A stretch of DNA of 64,000 bases from contig NZ_MVDG02000001.1 in the NCBI RefSeq assembly GCF_002008315.2, positions 3,782,001-3,846,000 on the forward strand, given 5' to 3'. This DNA comes from Arthrobacter sp. KBS0703. Its GTDB lineage: Bacteria; Actinomycetota; Actinomycetes; Actinomycetales; Micrococcaceae. The number at the start of each line of letters is the position of its first letter. The stretch's first letter is position 1. Under the pieces are notes generated by a model. The model ran no database searches, was not told where the DNA came from, and was given only the letters and a program-made list of their open reading frames with translations. Of the stretch, positions 2,549 to 57,063 are shown one piece after another. A program made the translations under genes and the position numbers.

Positions 2549-2734
2549 GTGAACGTTGATTCAGTCCAGAAAGTTTTCGTTGGTCACCTCGGAGAAAATC
2601 TGAAGGTAAATCCGCGCGGGGCGTTCCTGGGAACCCGGGAACCGACCCGCCTGAACGTAGGCCGATGGCGGTGGCGCCCCGGCTGGATCCACAAAGAAAT
2701 ACCGGCCCCGCAGTCTGCGCGGCAACGGCCATGA
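2549..2734 (+). CDS. Possible 61-residue leader peptide coupled to the RND gene
   Basis: A GTG at 2549, seven bases after TGGAG, opens a frame that begins MNVDSVQKVFVGHLGENL and ends in a TGA (2732-2734) overlapping the ATG of the RND gene in an ATGATG context. The RND start has no ribosome site of its own, so termination-reinitiation from this frame would explain how it is translated. The product is basic, has no membrane segment and resembles nothing I recognise. It could equally be a chance frame in the 5' leader. Confidence 0.3.
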   Translation: MNVDSVQKVFVGHLGENLKVNPRGAFLGTREPTRLNVGRWRWRPGWIHKEIPAPQSARQRP

Positions 2735-5700
2735 TGGCCGCGGTACTTCGATGGGTTATGCAGTTCCGGCTCTTGGTTCTCGTGGTGGCAGCAGGCGTCC
2801 TCGCCTACGGGTTCACCGCGCTGCCGGGCATGTCCGTGGACGCCTATCCGGAATTCGCCCCGCCACAGGTTGAGATACAGACCGAGGCCCTGGGACTGTC
2901 TGCCGCGGAGGTCGAACAGCTGATCACCTCCCCCATGGAGGCCGACCTGTTGAACGGCGTGGCCTGGGTGGAAGCCATCCGGTCCAAGTCGGTTCCGGGC
3001 CTGTCCTCGATACCACTGGTGTTCAAGCCGGGGACTGACATGTTCCGGGCACGCCAACTGGTGGCGGAACGCCTGACCCAGGCCAGGGCCCTGCCGAACG
3101 TTTCGGCCGCACCGGTCCTCATGCAGCCGCTGTCATCAACCAGCCGGGTCATGATGATCCGGCTCACATCCAAAGACATATCGGCCATCGACATGTCCGT
3201 CCTGGCCCGGTGGACCATGAAGCCCGCACTTCTGGCCGTCCCCGGAGTCGCGAACATCTCCATCTGGGGACAGCGCGACCAGCAGCTCCAGGTGCTCGTG
3301 GATCCCGCGCAGCTCGAGGCAAAGGGAGTGACGCTGGACCAGGTCATCAGAACCACCGGAAACTCCGTGTGGGTGTCACCGCTGAGCTATCTGGAGGCGT
3401 CCACACCCGGCACCGGCGGATTCCTGGAGACAGGACATCAGCGGCTTGGCGTCCAGCACGTCCTTCCCATCACCACACCCCAGGACCTGGGGAAAGTCAG
3501 CCTCCAGGGCACATCCCACAAATTGCTCCTGGGCGATGTCGCCAAGGTGCAGACAGACCATCAGCCGCTGATCGGTGACGCCCAGGTGGGCCCGAACGCT
3601 GAGCTGCTGCTCGTGATCGAGAAGTTCCCGGACACGAACACCGCTGACGTCACGAGGGGAATCGATGAGACCCTGCACGGACTTCAGCCCGGGCTGCAGG
3701 GCGTGGTCGTGGACACCAGCGTGTACCGCCAGTCGTCATTTATTCAGGACGAGGTGGGCAGCCTCGGCGACGCGATGCTCGTCACGTTGCTCCTGATCGG
3801 GGCAATGTTTGGATTCGTTTTCCGTTCATGGCGCACGGCGCTCATCAGCCTGATCGCCATTCCGCTCTCGCTCATCGCGGCAGCCCTGCTGCTCTCCCTG
3901 CGTGGCGGCGGACTCAACACCATGGTCCTGGCCGGCATGATCCTCGCCCTCACGGTCATCATCGGCGACGTGACCGAAGACCTCACCGGCACCATCAGGG
4001 CCCACCGCACGTCACGCACAGCGGATACCGGGGAGCCACGAAGCAACCTGCTGGTTGGGGCCTTCCAGGCGGTTCGGACGCCGCTGGTCTACTCCCTGCT
4101 GATCATCGCACTGAGCGTCCTGCCGGCGTTCTTCGTTCCGGGTGAGAACGGCGCGATGTTCGGACCCCTGGTGCTCACCTACCTGCTGGCACTGGCCGTC
4201 TCCATGATTGTGGCGTTGACCGCCACCATGGCCCTGGCGTTCCTCCTGCCGGAATCCTCCTCCCGGAAGCGGGAAGGCCGGGCCATGCAGCGCCTGCGCA
4301 TCCGGTACGGGCGGTTCCTGGCACGCCGGAACGGCAAGACCTGGTGGGCTTTCGCCGCCGTCGCGGTCATCGCCCTGGCCGGACTTGCCCTGGCACCCGG
4401 GCTGGTCACCGATAAGCCTGTGGTGCCCGTGCTCGCAGACAAGACGCTGGTAGTTGAGTGGAAGGCGATGACCGGCACGTCGGACCAGGAAATGACCCGG
4501 ATCACCGACGCTGCCGCGCGCGAACTCGGGGCCCTGCCCGGAGTCGCCACTGTCGGAACGGAGGTGGGGCGCGCGATTACGTCCGACCATGTGGGTGACG
4601 TCAGCTCCGGCGAGATTTGGGTGACTGTGGCCGCGGATGCGTCTTACCGCAACACCGTTAGCGCCATCCAGAGGGTCGTGGACGGCTACCCCGGCCTGAC
4701 CGGGAAAGTCTCGACATACCCGCAACAGAAGATCGACCAGATCCGGGAAGCCGCCGACTCCGGATTTGCGGTCCGTGTATACGGCGTGGACATGGCTACC
4801 CTCCGCCAAAAGGCAGAGGAGGTGCGGCAGGTCCTCGCACACACGGCCGGTGTGGTGAACCCGCGTGTAGATGCGCCCAACGAACAACCCACCGTCGAGG
4901 TCAAGGTCGATCTGGCCAAGGCCCAGAAGGCAGGCGTCGTTCCCGGTGAAGTGCGGCGCGCGGCTGCAGCCCTGCTGCAGGGCATCGAAGTGGGCAACGT
5001 CTACGAACAGCAGAAAGTCTTTTCCGTGGTGGTGAAGGGAACACCGTCCACCCGCAACAGCGTCACCAGCGTCCGCGATTTGCTGATCGACACCCCCAAC
5101 GGCGGCCATGTGCGCCTTGGCGACGTCGCCGGGGTCAACGTGGTGCCGAACGAAGCCGTGATTCTTCACGACGACACGTCACGGCGCGTTGATGTGAAGG
5201 CCGACATTCAGGGGCGCGCGTTGAGTGATATCCAGCAGGACATCGAAAGGGGCATCCAGGCGATCCAGTTCCCGCTGGCCTACCATGCCGAGATCCTCAC
5301 CCAGTATGCCCAGCAGCAGTCCGCTTTCCAGTGGTTGTGGCTGCTGGCGGCCGTGGCGGCCTTCGGCATCCTGGTCCTCCTCCAGACCGCGCTGGGAGGC
5401 TGGCGCCTCGCCGCCGCAGTCTTCCTTGGGCTGATCGTTTCCATGTCCGGTGGCGTCTTTGCCGCCTCGCTTGCGGGCGGAACCAATTCCCTGGTGGCAG
5501 TGATCGCGTTCTCGGCCGTCCTGGGAATCGCAGCCCGCAGCTGCCTGCTTCTCGCCGGCGAGGTGCGGAACCTCCGCTCCAGGGCGGGTGCCACTCCCGC
5601 GCCGGCCGACGTGATCCGTGCCGCGCGGCATCGGTTGCAGCCGACCCTCGCCTCCTTTGTGATGGCGGGCCTGGCCTTGCTGCCGCTGGTTCTTCTCGGC

Positions 5701-5886
5701 GGAGCGACCGGTGCCGTGGTCATCCAACCGCTCGCAATCATCATCTGGGGCGGCCTTCTGACAACCGCCCTCTACACCCTCTTTGTCCTGCCCGCCACAC
5801 TGCTCCGCTTCGCGCCCGACCAGGCACCCGCGGACGGCATTTTTGGCGAACGCCGGGCAGCATCTGAAAGCCGGGATCCGTCATGA
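2731..5886 (+). CDS. RND efflux permease, heavy-metal (CusA/CzcA-like) type, divergent paralogue
   Basis: About 1051 residues from the ATG at 2731; an in-frame start at 2665 would add 22 residues, but homologues begin near the first membrane helix (RLLVLVVAAGVLAYGF). The architecture is classic RND: helix 1, a porter half with SVDAYPEFAPPQVEIQT, a helix bundle near 345-525, a second porter half, and a final bundle near 870-1035. It aligns without gaps to the second RND protein through residue 420. There the helix-4 proton-relay segment [10 protein letters not shown] (411-420) of its partner is IGDVTEDLTG here, so Asp412 is Gly and Glu419 is Thr; Asp413 is kept. The helix-10 segment [11 protein letters not shown] is GIAARSCLLLA. 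It may be a structural partner of a heterotrimer, as in MdtBC, rather than an independent pump. Its stop overlaps the lipoprotein gene by four bases. Confidence 0.88.
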   Translation: MMAAVLRWVMQFRLLVLVVAAGVLAYGFTALPGMSVDAYPEFAPPQVEIQTEALGLSAAEVEQLITSPMEADLLNGVAWVEAIRSKSVPGLSSIPLVFKPGTDMFRARQLVAERLTQARALPNVSAAPVLMQPLSSTSRVMMIRLTSKDISAIDMSVLARWTMKPALLAVPGVANISIWGQRDQQLQVLVDPAQLEAKGVTLDQVIRTTGNSVWVSPLSYLEASTPGTGGFLETGHQRLGVQHVLPITTPQDLGKVSLQGTSHKLLLGDVAKVQTDHQPLIGDAQVGPNAELLLVIEKFPDTNTADVTRGIDETLHGLQPGLQGVVVDTSVYRQSSFIQDEVGSLGDAMLVTLLLIGAMFGFVFRSWRTALISLIAIPLSLIAAALLLSLRGGGLNTMVLAGMILALTVIIGDVTEDLTGTIRAHRTSRTADTGEPRSNLLVGAFQAVRTPLVYSLLIIALSVLPAFFVPGENGAMFGPLVLTYLLALAVSMIVALTATMALAFLLPESSSRKREGRAMQRLRIRYGRFLARRNGKTWWAFAAVAVIALAGLALAPGLVTDKPVVPVLADKTLVVEWKAMTGTSDQEMTRITDAAARELGALPGVATVGTEVGRAITSDHVGDVSSGEIWVTVAADASYRNTVSAIQRVVDGYPGLTGKVSTYPQQKIDQIREAADSGFAVRVYGVDMATLRQKAEEVRQVLAHTAGVVNPRVDAPNEQPTVEVKVDLAKAQKAGVVPGEVRRAAAALLQGIEVGNVYEQQKVFSVVVKGTPSTRNSVTSVRDLLIDTPNGGHVRLGDVAGVNVVPNEAVILHDDTSRRVDVKADIQGRALSDIQQDIERGIQAIQFPLAYHAEILTQYAQQQSAFQWLWLLAAVAAFGILVLLQTALGGWRLAAAVFLGLIVSMSGGVFAASLAGGTNSLVAVIAFSAVLGIAARSCLLLAGEVRNLRSRAGATPAPADVIRAARHRLQPTLASFVMAGLALLPLVLLGGATGAVVIQPLAIIIWGGLLTTALYTLFVLPATLLRFAPDQAPADGIFGERRAASESRDPS

Positions 5887-6338
5887 TGGGGAAATCGCCG
5901 CGGCCGTGCCGCCTACTGGTTCTACTCGCCCTGGTCCTCCTGGCGCTGACCCTGCCCGGCTGCAGCCAGCCGTCGGCGGAGGCTACCACCGCCGGCGACG
6001 CCGCTGCTAGCCTTCAGGAGATTCCGGGATCCGACGTCAAGCGCATCGTCCTCACCGAGCATGCGCTTGGGAACATCGGGCTGCAGACCTCCACGACGTC
6101 AGCGGATCCGAAGAGCGGGAAACTCAGTGTTCCGTACCTGGCCATCCTGTACGACAGCCAGGGAAAGACGTGGGTCTACACGAATCCCGAGCCCTTGGCC
6201 TTCGTCCGCCAGCCCGTAACCGTGGTGCGCATCGACGGGGAAGTCGCCCAGCTGAGCGGCGGCCCGGCGCCGGGCACCAAGGTGGTCACCCTCGGGGCCG
6301 AGGAACTGTTCGGCGCAGAGCTGGATACGGCGAACTGA
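5883..6338 (+). CDS. Small lipoprotein, probable truncated RND adaptor
   Basis: 151 residues. A hydrophobic signal ends in the lipobox LPGC near residue 28, predicting a lipid-anchored exported protein. The mature part has one recognisable stretch, GKLSVPYLAILYDSQGKTWV through QLSGGPAPGTKVVTLGAEEL. It resembles the beta-barrel and membrane-proximal domains of HlyD/CusB adaptors (conversion of a value at the cell, then a saturating-loop ending in GAEELFG). The alpha-hairpin and lipoyl domains that reach an outer-membrane channel are absent, which suits a monoderm cell. The ATG lies in an ATGA overlap with the upstream RND gene and the next RND gene starts one base after its stop, so the three are tightly coupled. 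Adaptor role is inferred from context and partial resemblance. Confidence 0.7.
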   Translation: MMGKSPRPCRLLVLLALVLLALTLPGCSQPSAEATTAGDAAASLQEIPGSDVKRIVLTEHALGNIGLQTSTTSADPKSGKLSVPYLAILYDSQGKTWVYTNPEPLAFVRQPVTVVRIDGEVAQLSGGPAPGTKVVTLGAEELFGAELDTAN

Positions 6339-6339
6339 C

Positions 6340-9300
6340 ATGCGCTGGATCATAGGAATCAGCCTCAGGTTCCGAACGATCGTCGTTGCGCTGGCGTGTG
6401 TGGTGATGGTGCTGGGTTCCCTCCAGCTCAGTTCTGCGTCAATCGACGTCTTTCCCGAATTCGCGCCGCCACGCGTGGAAATCCAGACTGCCTGCCTTGG
6501 TTTGACCGCGCAGGAAGTCGAGGAGCTGGTCTCGGTGCCCATCGAGGCATCCCTGAGCGGCATGCCCGGCCTCGACGAGCTCCGCTCGAAATCCGTGCCC
6601 CAGCTTTCCTCGATCGTGCTGGTGTTCAAACAGGGCACGGATCTGCTCAACGCCCGCCAGCTTGTATCGGAACGCATGGCGTCGGTGACGGCGGCGCTGC
6701 CCACCTGGGCCGCTCCGCCGGTGATGCTGCAGCCGTTGTCGTCCACCAGCCGCGTCATGAAGATCGGCATGACCTCGTCCAACCGGTCCATGATCGAAAT
6801 GTCCATGCTGTCCTACTGGACCATCCGGGCCAGGCTGCTCAGGGTCCCGGGCGTGGCCAACGTGGCCATTTGGGGCGAACGGCTCCAGATGCTGCAGGTC
6901 CAGGTCCAGCCCGAGCGGCTCAAAGCCCAGAATGTCTCGCTCAACCAGGTCATGGAGGTCACCGCCGGAGCCGTGGACGCGGGGCTGCTTCAGTACTCGC
7001 CCGGAAAGTTCATCGGCACCGGCGGCTTCGTCGGCAGCCCGAATCAACGGATGAGCGTCCGCCATGTCCAGCCGATCACCAGCCCCGCTGACCTGGCCCG
7101 CGTCACCATTCGGGAAAATCACGGCGTCGCGCTCCATCTGGGCGACGTGGCACGGGTCGTCGAGGACCACCAGCCGCTGATCGGCGACGCGGTCATCAAC
7201 AACGGGCACGGGCTCATGCTCATCGTGGAGAAGCTTCCGTGGGGAAACACGCTGGACGTGACGAAGGGGGTCGAGGAAGCCCTTCACGAACTCCAGCCGG
7301 GAATGAGCGGCATCACCTTTGACACCACCATCTTCCGCCCGGCCAGCTTCATCGAGGAGGCGATTTCCAACCTGAGCCTGGCCCTGCTCCTGGGCTGCCT
7401 GCTGGTGGTCATGATTCTCAGCGCCTTCCTGTTCCAATGGCGCACCGCGCTGATCAGCCTGGCGGCCATTCCGCTCTCCCTGCTCACGGCCGTCATGGTC
7501 CTCTACGCCACCGGCAGTTCGGTGAACACGATGGTCCTCGCCGGGCTCGTCATTGCGGTGGGGGTCGTCGTCGACGACGCAATCATCGACGTCGAAAACA
7601 TCATGCGCCGGCTGCGGCAGTACCGCGCCCGGGGCAGCGACGAATCCACGGCGTCGGTGGTCCTGAAGGCCTCGCTGGAAATGCGGAGCCCCATTGTCTA
7701 CGCGACCCTGATTATTGTCGTGGCCGCCTTTCCCATCCTTTTCTTGGACGGGCTGACAGGCGTCTTCTTCAGGCCACTGGCCGTCTCCTACACCCTGGCT
7801 GTCATGGCGTCGATGCTGGTGGCGCTGACAGTGACGCCCGCCCTGGCGCTGATCCTGCTGGGCCGGGCAAAACTGGAACAACGCGACCCGCCGCTGGTCC
7901 GCGTCCTCAAGCGCGGATACCATGCCGTCCTGTCCCGCATCATGAAACGGCCTCGCTACGGCTACCTCGGTTTCGGAGCACTGGCGGTTGTGGGGCTTAT
8001 GGCCGCTCCCCTGCTAGGCCAATCCCTGTTCCCCACGTTCAAGGAACGCGACTTCCTGATGCACTGGGTGTCCGAGCCCGGCACGTCGGCGGCAGAGGAA
8101 TACCGCATTGCCCAGCGGGGCTGCGAGGCCTTCCTCAAGGTGCCCGGTGTCCTCAATTGCGGGACGCACATCGGGCAGGCTTTCCAGGCGGACGAAATAG
8201 TCGGCGTCAACGCCGGCGAACACTGGATCAGCATCGACCGCCACGCCGACTACAACAAGACAGTGGCAGCGGTCCAGGAAGTCGTCGACGGTTACCCGGG
8301 CCTGCACCGTGACGTGCAGACGTACCTGAAGGAGAGGATCGAAGAAGTCCTGACCGGCGCCAGCGAACCGATCCTGGTGCGCGTCTACGGGGACGACCTC
8401 AACGTGCTGCGTGAGCAGGCACAACGGATCCACAAGATCCTCACCGACATCCCGGGAACTGACGATGCGCACATCTCCCTGGAGGTTGAAGTGCCGCAGA
8501 TCACCGTCAAGGTGAATCTCGCGGCGGCGGAAAAGTACGGGCTGAAACCCGGCGACGTGCGGCGGGCGGCCGCAACGCTCGTGGCCGGCGAAGAGGTGGG
8601 CGACGTCTTCCGGGACGGAAGGGCCTACGATGTCCAGGTCTGGAGCACTCCGGAGACCCGCACCAGCGTCACGAGCATCCAGGACCTGCCCATCGATACG
8701 CCGAGCGGGCAGCGTGTGCGCCTTGCCGATGTCGCCGCGGTCAGCGTACAGCCCACCCCGAACCTCATCGACCGGACCAACGGTTCGCGCAGGGTCGAAG
8801 TCGGTTCCTTCATCGATGCCGGGGCGGACCTGGGCCAGGTGGTCTCACAGCTGCAGAACCGGCTGGAATCCCTTGACCTGCCCGAAGGCTACAGCGTCCA
8901 GCTTCTTGGCGAATACACCGAGCGGCAGGCTGCCACCGAACGCCTGACAATTTTCGCGGTGGCGGCCCTGGCACTGATCTTCGTGTTCCTCCAGGCATCG
9001 TTCCGGAGCTGGCGGCTGGCCGTCCTCGCCCTCCTCACCTTGCCCATAGCGCTCGTGGGCGGGGTGCTTGCCGCTTATTTCTCCGGCAGGGTCCTCTCGC
9101 TGGGATCGCTCGTAGGGTTCCTGACGGTCATGGGAATCGCGGCCCGGAACGGCATCCTGCTCATCAGCCATTGCCAGCACCTGGAACGGAATGAAGGAGT
9201 CGCGTTCGGCGGTCCGCTCGTGTTGCGGGGCGCAGGGGAAAGGCTGTCGCCGATCCTCATGACCACCCTCGCCACCGGGCTCGCCCTGGTGCCGCTGGTC

Positions 9301-9489
9301 ATCATGGGAGACGTGCCGGGCCACGAGATCGAGCACCCGATGGCCATCGTCATCCTGGGAGGCCTCCTCACCTCAACGCTGCTCAACCTCTTCATTGTGC
9401 CGTCGCTGTATCTGCGGTTCGCCAAGAGCAAACGCGCCCGTGCCCGGCAACCCGGATCTGCGGATCCGGCACTGCAGCCCGCTCAGTGA
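6340..9489 (+). CDS. RND efflux permease, heavy-metal (CusA/CzcA-like) type, canonical
   Basis: 1049 residues, the normal length of an HME-RND pump. The motifs [16 protein letters not shown], helix 4 [20 protein letters not shown] (proton-relay Asp412/Asp413 and Glu419), and helix 10 [17 protein letters not shown] are intact. Twelve membrane segments fall at the expected places: one near 10-30, five near 340-530, one near 540-560, and five near 890-1030. The proteins exchange protons for metal ions or small organics. This is the third gene of the RND-lipoprotein-RND operon and starts one base after the lipoprotein stop without its own ribosome site. HME pumps are best known from diderms, so a pair in an actinobacterium is notable. 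Substrate cannot be read from sequence. Confidence 0.9.
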
Positions 9490-9556: not shown

Positions 9557-10969
9557 CTAAAAGTGGCCGCCGGCGGCGGCGGCGCGGTAGCGTGCGAGCA
9601 CGTCGGGGGCCGGACGGGCGGCTGTCTCTTATACACATCTAGATGTGTATAAGAGACAGGAGCACGCCGGCAGCCTGCCGGGCCGCGCCGTCGGCCACGT
9701 ACTCCCCGGTTCCGGCACCACGACCGGCAGGCCGAAGATGGCTGCCGCCGCCTGCTGCACGGCGGCGGAGCGCGCGCCTCCGCCAACCAGGATGATCCGC
9801 TCCGCGGAAACCCCCAGGTCCGTGAGCGCCTTCAACCCGTCCGCGAGGGAGCAGACGATTCCCTCGACGGCGGCGCGGGCCAGGTTCTCCGGCGTGAAAT
9901 TCTGCAGCGTCATCCCGTGCAGCGAGCCCGTCGCGTCCGGGAGGTTGGGGGTGCGCTCACCCTCGAAGTACGGGACGAAGACGAGGCCGTCGGCGCCGGG
10001 ACCGGCAGAAAGCGCGAGCTCGGAGAGCCGCGGCAGGCTCACCGACAGCAAGGCGGCGGTCGCGTCGAGCACCCGGGAAGCGTTGAGTGTGCACACCAGG
10101 GGCAGGTAGTGGCCCGTTGCGTCAGCGAAACCCGCAACCAGGCCGAGGGGATCAGCCGTGGGTTTGTCGGCGACGGCGAAGACCGTGCCGGATGTCCCGA
10201 TCGAAACCACGACGTCGCCCACCCCGGCGGCCACGCCGAGAGCCGCCCCGGCGTTGTCCCCGGCGCCGGGGCCGATCAGTGCGCCGGCGGGCGTGGCGAA
10301 ACCGCTGGCAAGCGGCGCAAGGACCGCAGGCAGCACGGGCACGTGCCCGAGCGTGCCCCCAAGTACCTCGGGGAGGTAGGCGCCGGTTGCGGGTGACCAA
10401 TAGCCCGTTCCGGAGGCATCTGAGCGGTCCGTCCGGAGCGCGGCCAGGCCCTCCGCGCCGCTTCCGGGTCCGAACCCGGCCAGCCGCCAGCTGAGCCAGT
10501 CGTGCGGGAGGCAGACGGCGGCCGTGCGGGCTGCGTTGTCCGGTTCGTTCTCGGCCAGCCAGCGCAGCTTGGTGGCCGTTATGGAAGCGACGGGTACCGT
10601 ACCGGTGGTCCGGGCCCAGTGCCGCCGGCCGGCGTCGTCGCTCCCCTGTCCGGCTTCCTTGATCAGGGCCGCTGCGGACGGGGCGGAACGCGTGTCGTTC
10701 CACAGCAGGGCAGGGCGGACCACGTCGCCGGACGCGTCGAGGCAGACCATCCCGTGCTGCTGGCCCCCCACTGATATCGCGGCAACGCCGTCGAGGCCGC
10801 CCGCCTGGGCGATCGCTTCCTGCAGGGCCTCCCACCAGGCGTCGGGGTGCACCTCGGAGCCTCGCGGATGCCGGGCTGATCCGTGGCGCACCAGCGCACC
10901 GGTCTCGGCGTCACGGATGACCACCTTGCAGGATTGGGTGGAGCTGTCGACTCCGGCAACCAGGGGCAT
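9557..10969 (-). CDS. xylB: Xylulokinase, interrupted by an adapter scar and a frameshift
   Basis: Phosphorylates D-xylulose to xylulose 5-phosphate. The protein starts [20 protein letters not shown] (FGGY ATP-binding phosphate 1), continues with [14 protein letters not shown] and LLWNDTRS (sugar-binding segments typical of XylB), and has the C-terminal [13 protein letters not shown] and [19 protein letters not shown] motifs. Near 9704 one G is missing: [19 protein letters not shown] can be read only by shifting frame. The mate-pair adapter follows at 9622-9659. Beyond it the frame [20 protein letters not shown] then stop (9557) reads as the natural XylB C-terminus. So the gene is probably whole in the organism and damaged only in the assembly, with some 10-30 residues missing. 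It lies downstream of xylA in the same direction. Confidence 0.85.
9622..9659. other. Nextera mate-pair junction adapter (library artefact)
   Basis: CTGTCTCTTATACACATCT is followed directly by its own reverse complement, 38 bp in all. This is the circularisation junction of the Nextera mate-pair kit (two Tn5 mosaic ends head to head), not genomic sequence. Both sides carry xylB sequence in the right order and strand, so the scar most likely fills a small local gap rather than joining distant loci. Confidence 0.97.
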
Positions 10970-30773: not shown

Positions 30774-31864
30774 ATGACAACGCCGAACACCACCCTTGCC
30801 GCAGCCGGCGCCGCCACCCAGCCTCCCGGCGTGCTGATGGCCGCCGAAATCCTCGAGCAGCCAGAGGCCCTCGCCCGGCAGCTCGACCACGGCCGCCCCG
30901 AGATCCGCCGCCTGGCCGCCGTCCTTCGGGACGCGGACATCCGGTACGTCCTCCTGGCCGCCAGGGGCACGAGCGACCACGCCGCCCTGTACGCGAAGTA
31001 CCTCATCGAGACCGTCCTGGGCCTGCCGGCAGGGCTCGCGTCGCCGTCGAGCCTTACCGTGTACCGCGCGGAACCCAAGATGGACGGGGTCCTCTGGCTG
31101 GCCGTGAGCCAGTCGGGCGGATCCCCGACCTGGTGGACTCCACCGCCGCGGCCGCCCGCGGCGGCGCGCTCACCGTTGCGGTGACCAATGCGCCGTCCTC
31201 GCCCCTGGCGGCGCGGCCCGGCACCACCTGGACATTCTGGCCGGGCCGGAGCGTGCCGTGGCCGCCACCAAGAGTTACACCTCCCAGCTGCTGGCGCTCT
31301 GGCTGCTCATCGACGCCTGGGCGGCGGTGCCGGGACCGATGCGCTGGCCCTGCCCGGCCACGCGGCGGATGTTTTGGCCAGACCGGAGATACTGGAGGTG
31401 GCAGACCGCTACCGCTACGTGAACCACATCATCACCACCGGGCGCGGATTCTCATATCCCACCGCACGGGAGGCGGCGTTGAAACTGATGGAAACGTCCT
31501 ATCTGGCCGCCCATGCCTTTTCCGGAGCCGATCTCCTGCACGGACCGTTCGCGATGATCGACGAGGACCGTCCCGTCATCGCGATCGCCTCCCCGGGCGC
31601 CGGCGGACGCGCCCTGCAGCCGGTGCTGGAGCGCCTGGCGGCGCGCGGGGCCGACGTCTGCCTGGTGGGCGACCCCGCGGCGGCCCGCCCGCAGAACCAT
31701 GTGGTGCCCCTCCCGGCCGTCAGCGAACGGCTCGCTCCGGTCCTCGAGATACTGCCGCTGCAGCGCCTGGCCCACGCCATGGCAGCGGCCCTGTCTCTTA
31801 TACACATCTAGATGTGTATAAGAGACAGCCCCGGGGCCTGCGCAAGATCACGGAAACCTGGTGA
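30774..31864 (+). pseudogene. SIS-domain glucosamine-6-phosphate deaminase (NagB-II-like), broken by three frameshifts and an adapter
   Basis: ATG at 30774 after CGAGGAGAC. Two SIS domains without a glutaminase domain, as in NagB-II: YVLLAARGTSDHAALYAKYL, then LAVSQSGGSPDLVD across a missing G near 31126, AVAATKSYTSQLLALWLLID after a shift near 31215, and GRGFSYPTAREAALKLMETS with AFSGADLLHGPFAMIDEDRP after a missing G near 31322. Each of the three shifts is consistent with loss of one base. The adapter at 31791-31828 then replaces a few codons; PRGLRKITETW, the typical C-terminus, follows and stops at 31864. It would convert glucosamine 6-phosphate to fructose 6-phosphate and ammonia after NagA. 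Confidence 0.82.
31791..31828. other. Nextera mate-pair junction adapter (library artefact)
   Basis: Full 38-bp head-to-head mosaic-end junction. The SIS gene reads up to it (LPLQRLAHAMAAA) and resumes after it (PRGLRKITETW) in the same direction, so only a handful of codons are missing. Confidence 0.97.
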
Positions 31865-55559: not shown

Positions 55560-55596
55560 CTGTCTCTTATACACATCTAGATGTGTATAAGAGACA
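55560..55596. other. Nextera mate-pair junction adapter, last base lost (library artefact)
   Basis: 37 of the 38 bases of the mosaic-end junction, the terminal G being replaced. It truncates the C-terminal tail of the MFS gene next to a GCCGTC tandem run. Confidence 0.96.
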
Positions 55597-57063
55597 CCGC
55601 CGCGTCGCCGCGGACTCGCCGGCCGCCGTCGCCGTCGCCGTCGCCGTCGGGGGAACGATGATGGGCAAAGCGCCGGTGCGGAAATGCACCTCCAGTTCTT
55701 CCAGGGACTGCCCGCTCGTCTCCGGCACGAACTTGGCAACGAAGACCAGGGACAGAACATTGACCAGCACAAACACGGCGAAGGTTCCCGTCGATCCCAA
55801 GGCGACCACGAGGATCGGGAACAGGAAGGAGATCGCCGCGTTGACGGTCCACAGGGCAAAGACCGCGATCCCCATGGCGAATCCCCGGATGGCCATCGGG
55901 AAGATCTCCGAAAGCAGCAGCCAGACGCAGGTCCCGATGAAGCACTGCACGAAGGCCACGAAGAGCATCATGGCGGCCAGGATCGTGTAACTGACGGCGT
56001 TGGACTGCGGAAGCATGAAGACGACGGCGAGAAGCGCCTGGGATCCGACAACACCGGAGAATCCGATGATGAGCATGCGGCGGCGCCCGACGAAGCCCAG
56101 GAGCCAGATGCCCACGATGGTCATGACCACCGATGTCACGCCCACGGCAATGGTTGCCACCAGCGACGCGCTCACACCGAGCCCGCTGCGTTCAAGGATG
56201 CTGGGCGCGTAGTAGTTCACCGTGTTGATCCCGGTCGCCTGCTGGACGACCGCGAGTCCGATGCCGATCCACAGCAGCCGGCGCATCCACGGGTTGTTCT
56301 TCAGGTCGCGCCAGGCATGCGAGCGCTCGTTGCGGGCCGTCGTGGCGGACTCGACGATCTCCTTGTACTCAGCCTCTGCTTCGTCCCGGTCCCGGCTCAG
56401 GTCCAGGATCCGCCGGCTATCCGCGAATCGGTCCCGGAGCGCGAACCAGCGCGGCGATTCCGGCAGCATCAGCATGCCGATCAGAAGCGCAATCGCGGGG
56501 ATCGACGCCACGCCGAGCATCAGGCGCCACACGGACGTGTCATGGATGAGGGTGTCGAGAAGAGCGTTGATGGCGAAGGCGAGCATCTGACCGGTGACGA
56601 TCATCAGCTCGTTGATGGTGACCATGCGGCCCCGCAGGTTTGCCGGCGCCATTTCCGCCAGATACAGGGGGCAGGTTACCGCCGCCGCGCCCACACCGAG
56701 GCCGAGGATCACGCGGGAGGACACCATGAAGGCGACATTGGGGGCGATGGCGCAGCCCAGGGCGCCCAGGAGGAACAGCAGTGCGCAGACAAGGAGCGTG
56801 CCGCGGCGGCCGAGTGCGTCAGCGAGCCGGCCTCCGGTCAGTGCACCCGCGGCGGCGCCGGGGAACAGCAGGGCACTGACCACCGTCGCCTGCTCGACGG
56901 CGTTCATGTTCAACGAGTCCTGCATGTACAGCAGCGCACCGGAGATGACTCCGGTGTCGTAGCCGAACAGGAGTCCGCCAAGCGTGGAGATGATGGTCAG
57001 GCGGGTGAGATACCCGCCGTGTTTGGAGCCCGATGCGGGCCGGTGTGCTGCGTGCAACGACAT
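55597..57063 (-). CDS. MFS sugar transporter, sugar-porter/IolT type, 3' end lost at the adapter
   Basis: About 490 residues to the adapter. Twelve helices; STLGGLLFGYDTGVISGALL opens helix 1, GGRLADALGRRGTLLVCALL and LGFVGRRRMLIIGFSGVVGS are the conserved loops, MLMLPESPRWFALRDRFADS the central PESPR motif, and KFVPETSGQSLEELEVHFRT the C-terminal PET motif. Close relatives carry myo-inositol or pentoses. The last residues are a Thr-Ala repeat (from GCCGTC repeats) running into the adapter. On the far side a frame reads AVALHRP to a stop, so little seems missing. Start at 57063 after AAGGA; a start three codons upstream is possible. Confidence 0.88.

Follow-up and report, generated by a model that had tools for sequence, protein, structure and literature searches.

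In the window, by which we mean the whole 64,000-nucleotide stretch of DNA from the soil bacterium Arthrobacter sp. KBS0703 that was analysed, we found three plus-strand open reading frames in a row: a gene for an RND permease of 1051 aa (RND1; the open frame begins upstream, at 2665), a gene for a 151-aa lipoprotein that we call the stub (lipobox at residues 24–27) and a gene for a second RND permease, of 1049 aa (RND2). The RND1 stop codon and the stub start codon share the bases ATGA, and a single base separates the stub stop codon from the ATG of RND2. This anatomy is solid and is the order of overlapping or abutting RND, lipoprotein and RND genes that an earlier note on this DNA had claimed. 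Coupling of this kind may bring about equal synthesis of the products, as that note proposed. When each gene was compared with three relatives, we found dN/dS values of 0.15–0.18 for RND1, 0.07–0.08 for RND2 and 0.20–0.37 for the stub, indicating purifying selection on all three genes. The positions of the genes and of the residues discussed below are given in Table 1.

Table 1. Features of the RND1–stub–RND2 operon, in window coordinates
Feature	Position	Strand	Evidence
RND1, divergent RND permease, predicted non-autonomous partner subunit	2731..5886	+	ACR_tran 484 bits; single RND1 clade; dN/dS 0.15–0.18
RND1 docking-domain (DN) loop SPLSYLEASTPGTGGF, within 29-residue segment (18 in single-RND relatives)	3376..3423	+	
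RND1 Gly412 at first proton-relay Asp site (AcrB D407, CusA D405)	3964..3966	+	
RND1 Glu576 at CusA Met573 site (His in 83/83 RND2)	4456..4458	+	
RND1 Gln670 at CusA Met672 site (Glu in 83/83 RND2)	4738..4740	+	
Stub, 151-aa lipoprotein, predicted adaptor with membrane-proximal domain only	5883..6338	+	
Stub lipobox LPGC	5952..5963	+	Loose lipobox pattern in homologues
Stub Gly138, counterpart of AcrA Gly363 by motif VVxxG	6294..6296	+	
RND2, canonical RND permease, predicted engine subunit	6340..9489	+	ACR_tran 716 bits; relay signature of all 83 RND2 (one differs at E414 site)
RND2 docking-domain loop, 19 residues	6973..7029	+	
RND2 proton-relay Asp412-Asp413 (AcrB D407/D408)	7573..7578	+	
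RND2 His575 at CusA Met573 site, invariant	8062..8064	+	
RND2 Glu669 at CusA Met672 site, invariant	8344..8346	+	

The contig that carries the window (C1) makes up 4.42 of the 4.86 Mb of the genome (G000, 37 contigs), and it holds a second RND1–stub–RND2 operon (L093; G000:C1:3255000-3268000) whose RND1 likewise carries Gly at the first relay position. Among the fetched loci, the closest relatives of RND1, the stub and RND2 come from Arthrobacter. The window also contains three sequences (9622–9659, 31791–31828 and 55560–55597) that we take to be Nextera-type adapter dimers, with six half-sites, one of them mismatched, where shuffles are expected to give none; this suggests that the contig contains artefactual joins. 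The first dimer falls where a carbohydrate-kinase ORF ends, a short way 3′ of RND2, so the sequence 3′ of about 9620 may be a false neighbour of the operon.

Family assignment of the permeases

Both permeases match the Pfam family ACR_tran near full length and far above its gathering score of 28, which places them among the RND permeases. The earlier note had called them heavy-metal type, a label that is loosely right: the nearest PDB sequences to each are ZneA and then CusA, but against TIGR00914 (CusA/CzcA heavy-metal RND) RND1 scores 373.3 bits and RND2 579.5 bits, under the curated cut-off of 701.45, and the operon is therefore not filed in the CusA/CzcA family. At the sites of CusA Met573, Met623 and Met672, RND2 has His, Phe or Ala, and Glu, respectively. 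A Pfam search found no common metal gene among 20 flanking genes. We file the system as a variant of RND exporters that is neither a CusA/CzcA family member nor a full adaptor system.

The stub is predicted to be a membrane-proximal adaptor domain

Pfam gave no match to the stub, and searching PDB sequences with only the stub gave nothing significant (best E 0.18). The C-terminal end of TIGR00999 matches stub residues 79–140 (E 1.2e-4, 21.3 bits, far under the cut-off of 319.3), the C-terminal end of TIGR01730 also matches the stub (E 2.5e-4, 20.1 bits, far under the cut-off of 94.9), and a PDB search with a stub profile found one adaptor (E 3.7e-5). When the stub is aligned to longer adaptors, the beta-barrel, lipoyl and hairpin segments are gaps. 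The predicted fold is related to that of adaptors and agrees with the earlier proposal that the stub resembles only their membrane-proximal (MP) end; the assignment to the periplasmic adaptors (MFP/PAP) as a predicted MP domain and nothing more is thus supported. Among the best 120 homologues, 108 of the 118 that are 200 aa or less have a loose lipobox pattern. The VVxxG glycine of the MP domain is retained in the stub, and passages of the cited papers describe the role of its AcrA counterpart, G363 (PMC4338810), and the activation of transporters by MP domains (PMC4338810; PMC8277102). In one stub relative (P0080), the N-terminus resembles, by eye, the tail of an RND permease, which would fit a fusion of the two genes.

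The stub lacks the beta-barrel, lipoyl and hairpin segments of CusB and ZneB, the MFP/PAP adaptors of heavy-metal RNDs, and, unlike in their systems, no TolC-like ORF was found beside stub operons in 109 fetched stretches (two TolC queries, E<=1e-8), leaving these stretches with no outer-membrane factor by this search. The hairpin-less Borrelia adaptor BesA has an outer-membrane partner, BesC, according to parts of PMC8277102, and is larger (263–275 residues in solved chains), whereas the stub retains the MP domain only. By description, the stub can be likened to mycobacterial MmpS5, a small membrane-anchored all-beta periplasmic accessory that secures the RND-superfamily MmpL5 trimer; on the same descriptive footing, MmpS5 has a TM-helix anchor and a single MmpL partner, unlike the lipid-anchored stub with its two RNDs (passages of PMC12346298).

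Linkage and distribution

We took as related loci the best 80 of 100 stretches carrying a relative, and called an RND complete at at least 950 aa. Complete RNDs lie on both sides of the stub at 67 of these 80 loci; the other 13 comprise seven with both RNDs but cut or frameshifted, four at contig ends with one RND visible and two orphan stubs. A further 15 loci gave 12 complete, two cut and one false match. A search for the same order in Actinomycetota, which the earlier note had proposed, covered 396 genomes of the window's phylum: the stub profile gave 16 matches, one of them false (G207), and all 15 true carriers have such RNDs. The RND1 profile (E<=1e-150) found 17 of the 396 genomes, namely the 15 stub carriers and G258 and G440, the only ones with an RND and no stub, where only RND2 pieces are visible, at contig ends. 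Throughout the loci and phylum genomes examined, RND1 and RND2 were never apart save where contigs end. The linkage that the earlier note had expected is thus conserved across genomes, and complete loci at this frequency, together with purifying selection on the three genes, indicate that the arrangement is more than chance. The distribution is sporadic, with the stub in 10 of 59 near-relative genomes, the window's own included.

The record titles of the best 80 of 100 loci name Actinomycetota, Chloroflexi, Rokubacteria, Bacteroidota, Planctomycetes, Trueperaceae, Gemmatimonadetes, a Rhodoferax assembly and others; many of the records are MAGs, whose labels may in some cases be wrong. In L040, a MAG titled Phaeodactylibacter, an outer-membrane porin gene (PF07396) adjoins the operon, and the stub therefore occurs in at least one diderm. 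We rejected a monoderm-only reading on this ground, and the earlier idea that the hairpin is missing because there is no outer membrane does not hold as the sole cause.

Several loci depart from the common order. In L137, from one genome of the phylum, the order is stub–RND1–stub–RND2, and the stub before RND1 is longer (203 aa). In L087 (Chloroflexi), two ORFs between RND1 and a 272-aa adaptor (5965–8357) look by eye like an ABC ATPase and a permease, and a gap of about the same size is present in L090; both loci were scored complete despite about 2.4 kb between RND1 and the adaptor. The orphan stubs, L038 and L066, are without RND genes in the flanking sequence fetched (up to 9 kb). A conserved adjacent regulator was considered and rejected, as an OmpR-type regulator or kinase (E<=1e-15) is present in only 7 of 109 stretches.

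RND1 lacks relay and cleft residues that RND2 keeps

To compare the two permeases residue by residue, we counted 86 RND1 and 83 RND2 sequences. RND ORFs under 700 aa were excluded throughout, while the RND1 of L037, L068 and L071 were counted as pieces of 735–752 aa and no RND2 pieces from L147 and L148 entered the count. The counts omit L023 and L032, where the stub was found inside an ORF >400 aa (L023 is also broken), L135 and L142, which by length lie on the same contigs as L053 and L089, and the cut locus L134. L094–L105 were excluded from later residue comparisons; seven are duplicates and five (L096, L097, L098, L104, L105) are outside the main locus set. Including these five would not alter the picture, since the first relay site is Gly in every one of their RND1 and Asp in every RND2.

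In RND2, the residues of AcrB D407, D408, N415, R971 and T978 are present in 83/83 sequences, as is Arg at the K940 site, and E414 is present in 82/83. In RND1 (n = 86), the D407 site is Gly in 41, Asp in 33, Ala in 5, Thr in 3, His in 2, Ser in 1 and Asn in 1; E414 is kept in 12, N415 in 15 and T978 in 40, whereas D408 is kept in 83, Arg at the K940 site in 81 and R971 in 74. The cleft His (CusA Met573 site) is present in 83/83 RND2 and 11/86 RND1, and the cleft Glu (CusA Met672 site) in 83/83 and 19/86. The window follows this pattern: RND1 has G412, T419, G420, S975, E576 and Q670 where RND2 has D412, E419, N420, T975, H575 and E669, and it retains D413, R936 and R968. As described in parts of a review of AcrB, D407 bonds T978, R971 contacts E414/N415 and substituting any one of D407, D408, K940 and R971 abolishes extrusion (Chem. 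Rev. 2021, PMC8277102). In the window's RND1 the partners are changed for both contacts.

RND1 forms one clade of 86 with no RND2 within it (support 0.91), and clade and neighbourhood together give two adjacent paralogous RNDs from one duplication, as in heteromeric RNDs of the MdtBC type. At the D407 site, a Fitch reconstruction places Asp at the root of the RND1 clade and counts five changes. Asp gave way to Gly and then Thr in Micrococcales, to Ala in Catellatospora, to His in Rhizohabitans/Nonomuraea, to Ser in one Chloroflexi MAG and to Asn in one genome of the phylum, and 44 of the 53 losses (41 Gly, 3 Thr) fall within one Micrococcales clade. Because 33 of the 86 RND1 keep the first relay Asp, a dead RND1 subunit would be neither ancestral nor universal. 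Taken together, these sequences point to an asymmetric pair in which RND1 is probably without parts of the proton relay and the substrate cleft, and the statistical asymmetry is strong.

E. coli MdtBC, a heterotrimeric RND, and MuxBC likewise consist of two adjacent paralogues from one duplication, and differing subunit roles have been proposed for them in the passages cited (PMC7015380, PMC4462101). MdtB and MdtC each keep D407, D408, K940, R971 and T978, which the window's RND1 does not, and here the adaptor gene sits between the two RND genes. The TolC-linked single-RND relatives (Methylomonas, Hymenobacter, Sphingomonas, Burkholderia plasmids) have relay and His/Glu cleft residues as in RND2; they differ in having one RND in the stretch, an adjoining TolC gene, an adaptor of 314–419 aa and a docking segment of 18 residues instead of 29. 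In the first three of these genera the adaptor ends AELFGTE, close to the end of the stub. Three single-RND relatives on plasmids (L110, L111, L112) have PAP2 phosphatase genes and two-component systems nearby, with DedA genes in L111 and L112.

Domains of RND1 evolve at different rates

We compared RND1/RND2 distance ratios by domain in 34 representatives (561 pairs), using presumed AcrB subdomain boundaries. The ratio is lowest in DN, at 0.78 (bootstrap 0.71–0.87; 0.86 without the loop), and is 1.01 in PN1 (0.87–1.24), 1.05 in DC, 1.13 in PC2b, 1.30 in PN2, 1.64 in the PC cleft, 1.78 in TM2-6 and 2.02 in TM8-12 (1.88–2.17). The correlation of RND1 and RND2 distances (0.927) is inflated by shared ancestry. 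The docking segment (around AcrB 200–226) is 29 residues long in all 83 RND2 and in 83 of the 86 RND1 (the remaining three are fragments), against 22 in AcrB and 18 in CusA, MdtB, MdtC and four single-RND relatives. Much of the RND1 docking loop is conserved at 0.84–0.98 per position. According to passages of PMC8277102, PN1 faces the inside of the trimer, and a hairpin from the neighbouring protomer completes the docking-domain sheet. The slow docking domain of RND1 could also come from binding of the stub or another partner, as an alternative to trimer assembly.

A LolA-like protein associated with the RND pair

A family of secreted proteins with a LolA-like predicted fold is encoded at L018:4511-5503, L047:12509-13444 and in 45 other fetched stretches, and is associated with the RND pair by neighbourhood and co-occurrence. 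In the window's genome its gene (G000:C1:1231651-1232505) is unlinked to the operon. A PDB sequence search with the protein gave no match. A tentative and rather doubtful extension would be a four-part exporter, with an asymmetric RND heterotrimer containing a passive protomer, the lipid-anchored MP-only adaptor as switch and the LolA-like protein as secreted carrier, for which the cargo would be a lipid or amphiphile, not a metal ion.

Proposed mechanism and alternatives

We think it probable, by a modest measure, that the product of the operon is a heteromeric RND exporter. RND2, whose proton-relay residues are present and whose periplasmic substrate cleft is intact, would be the working permease. 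RND1, derived from an RND2-type gene through one duplication, would serve in that trimer mainly in a structural or regulatory capacity, its trimer-building parts (PN1 and the docking domain) kept and its proton pathway and cleft left to drift. We infer that the stub, as a lipid-tethered adaptor reduced to its MP domain, would seat on and activate this mixed trimer without bridging to an outer-membrane channel, for which there is no gene nearby, and that the export product would be released at the cell surface or wall.

RND1 and RND2 might instead each assemble into a homotrimeric pump of its own, the two pumps sharing the stub and RND1 relying on altered coupling (the second Asp and Arg) for another substrate. 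D408, Arg at the K940 site and R971 are kept in most RND1, so some proton coupling may remain there, and RND1 is under purifying selection; the second stub upstream of RND1 in L137, as if one per RND, fits as well. We nevertheless consider separate pumps unlikely, because the first relay Asp and the cleft His were lost repeatedly while the RND1 docking domain evolved more slowly than that of RND2, because RND1 and RND2 are apart only at contig ends, and because a single relay substitution costs AcrB its extrusion (as described in parts of PMC8277102). The loss of catalytic residues and the faster rate of most RND1 domains would also fit a decaying duplicate on its way to a pseudogene. To this we give very little credence: RND1 has full-length ORFs across phyla, its docking domain is better conserved than that of RND2 and its docking loop is strongly conserved, and its dN/dS of 0.15–0.18, on which we rejected a pseudogene, indicates that it is not simply decaying.

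For the stub, being small and lipid-anchored would suit a CusF-like chaperone for a metal or ligand, with an adaptor-derived fold and no adaptor role, and CusB-type adaptors also pass on metal (passages of PMC8277102). This seems improbable, given that among 24 aligned stubs the start Met and the lipobox Cys are the sole Met, His or Cys columns conserved in half or more, on which we rejected a metal chaperone with conserved ligands, and that the glycine of the activating MP domain is retained.

Within titles and abstract beginnings of the open literature, a scope that most subscription papers fall outside, we found no description of an RND–stub–RND operon or an MP-only adaptor. One related mention came up: a gene annotated as CzcA in Arthrobacter sp. 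H-02-3, the source of loci L021 and L062 (passages of PMC6978705). A 2024 survey of HME, NFE and HAE-1 pumps left out Actinobacteria, Chloroflexi and Firmicutes, according to the part cited (PMC10872679), which may explain why the system went unnoticed.

If the four-part arrangement is true, a LolA-like carrier would take the substrate across the wall or periplasm in place of an adaptor-channel conduit. The stub, if its predicted fold is right, is the missing case of an MP domain alone, in pure form, and would allow activation to be tested apart from bridging. As a natural experiment, the RND pair, whose RND1 appears to have repeatedly lost relay and cleft residues that RND2 kept, bears on whether an RND trimer needs three active protomers.
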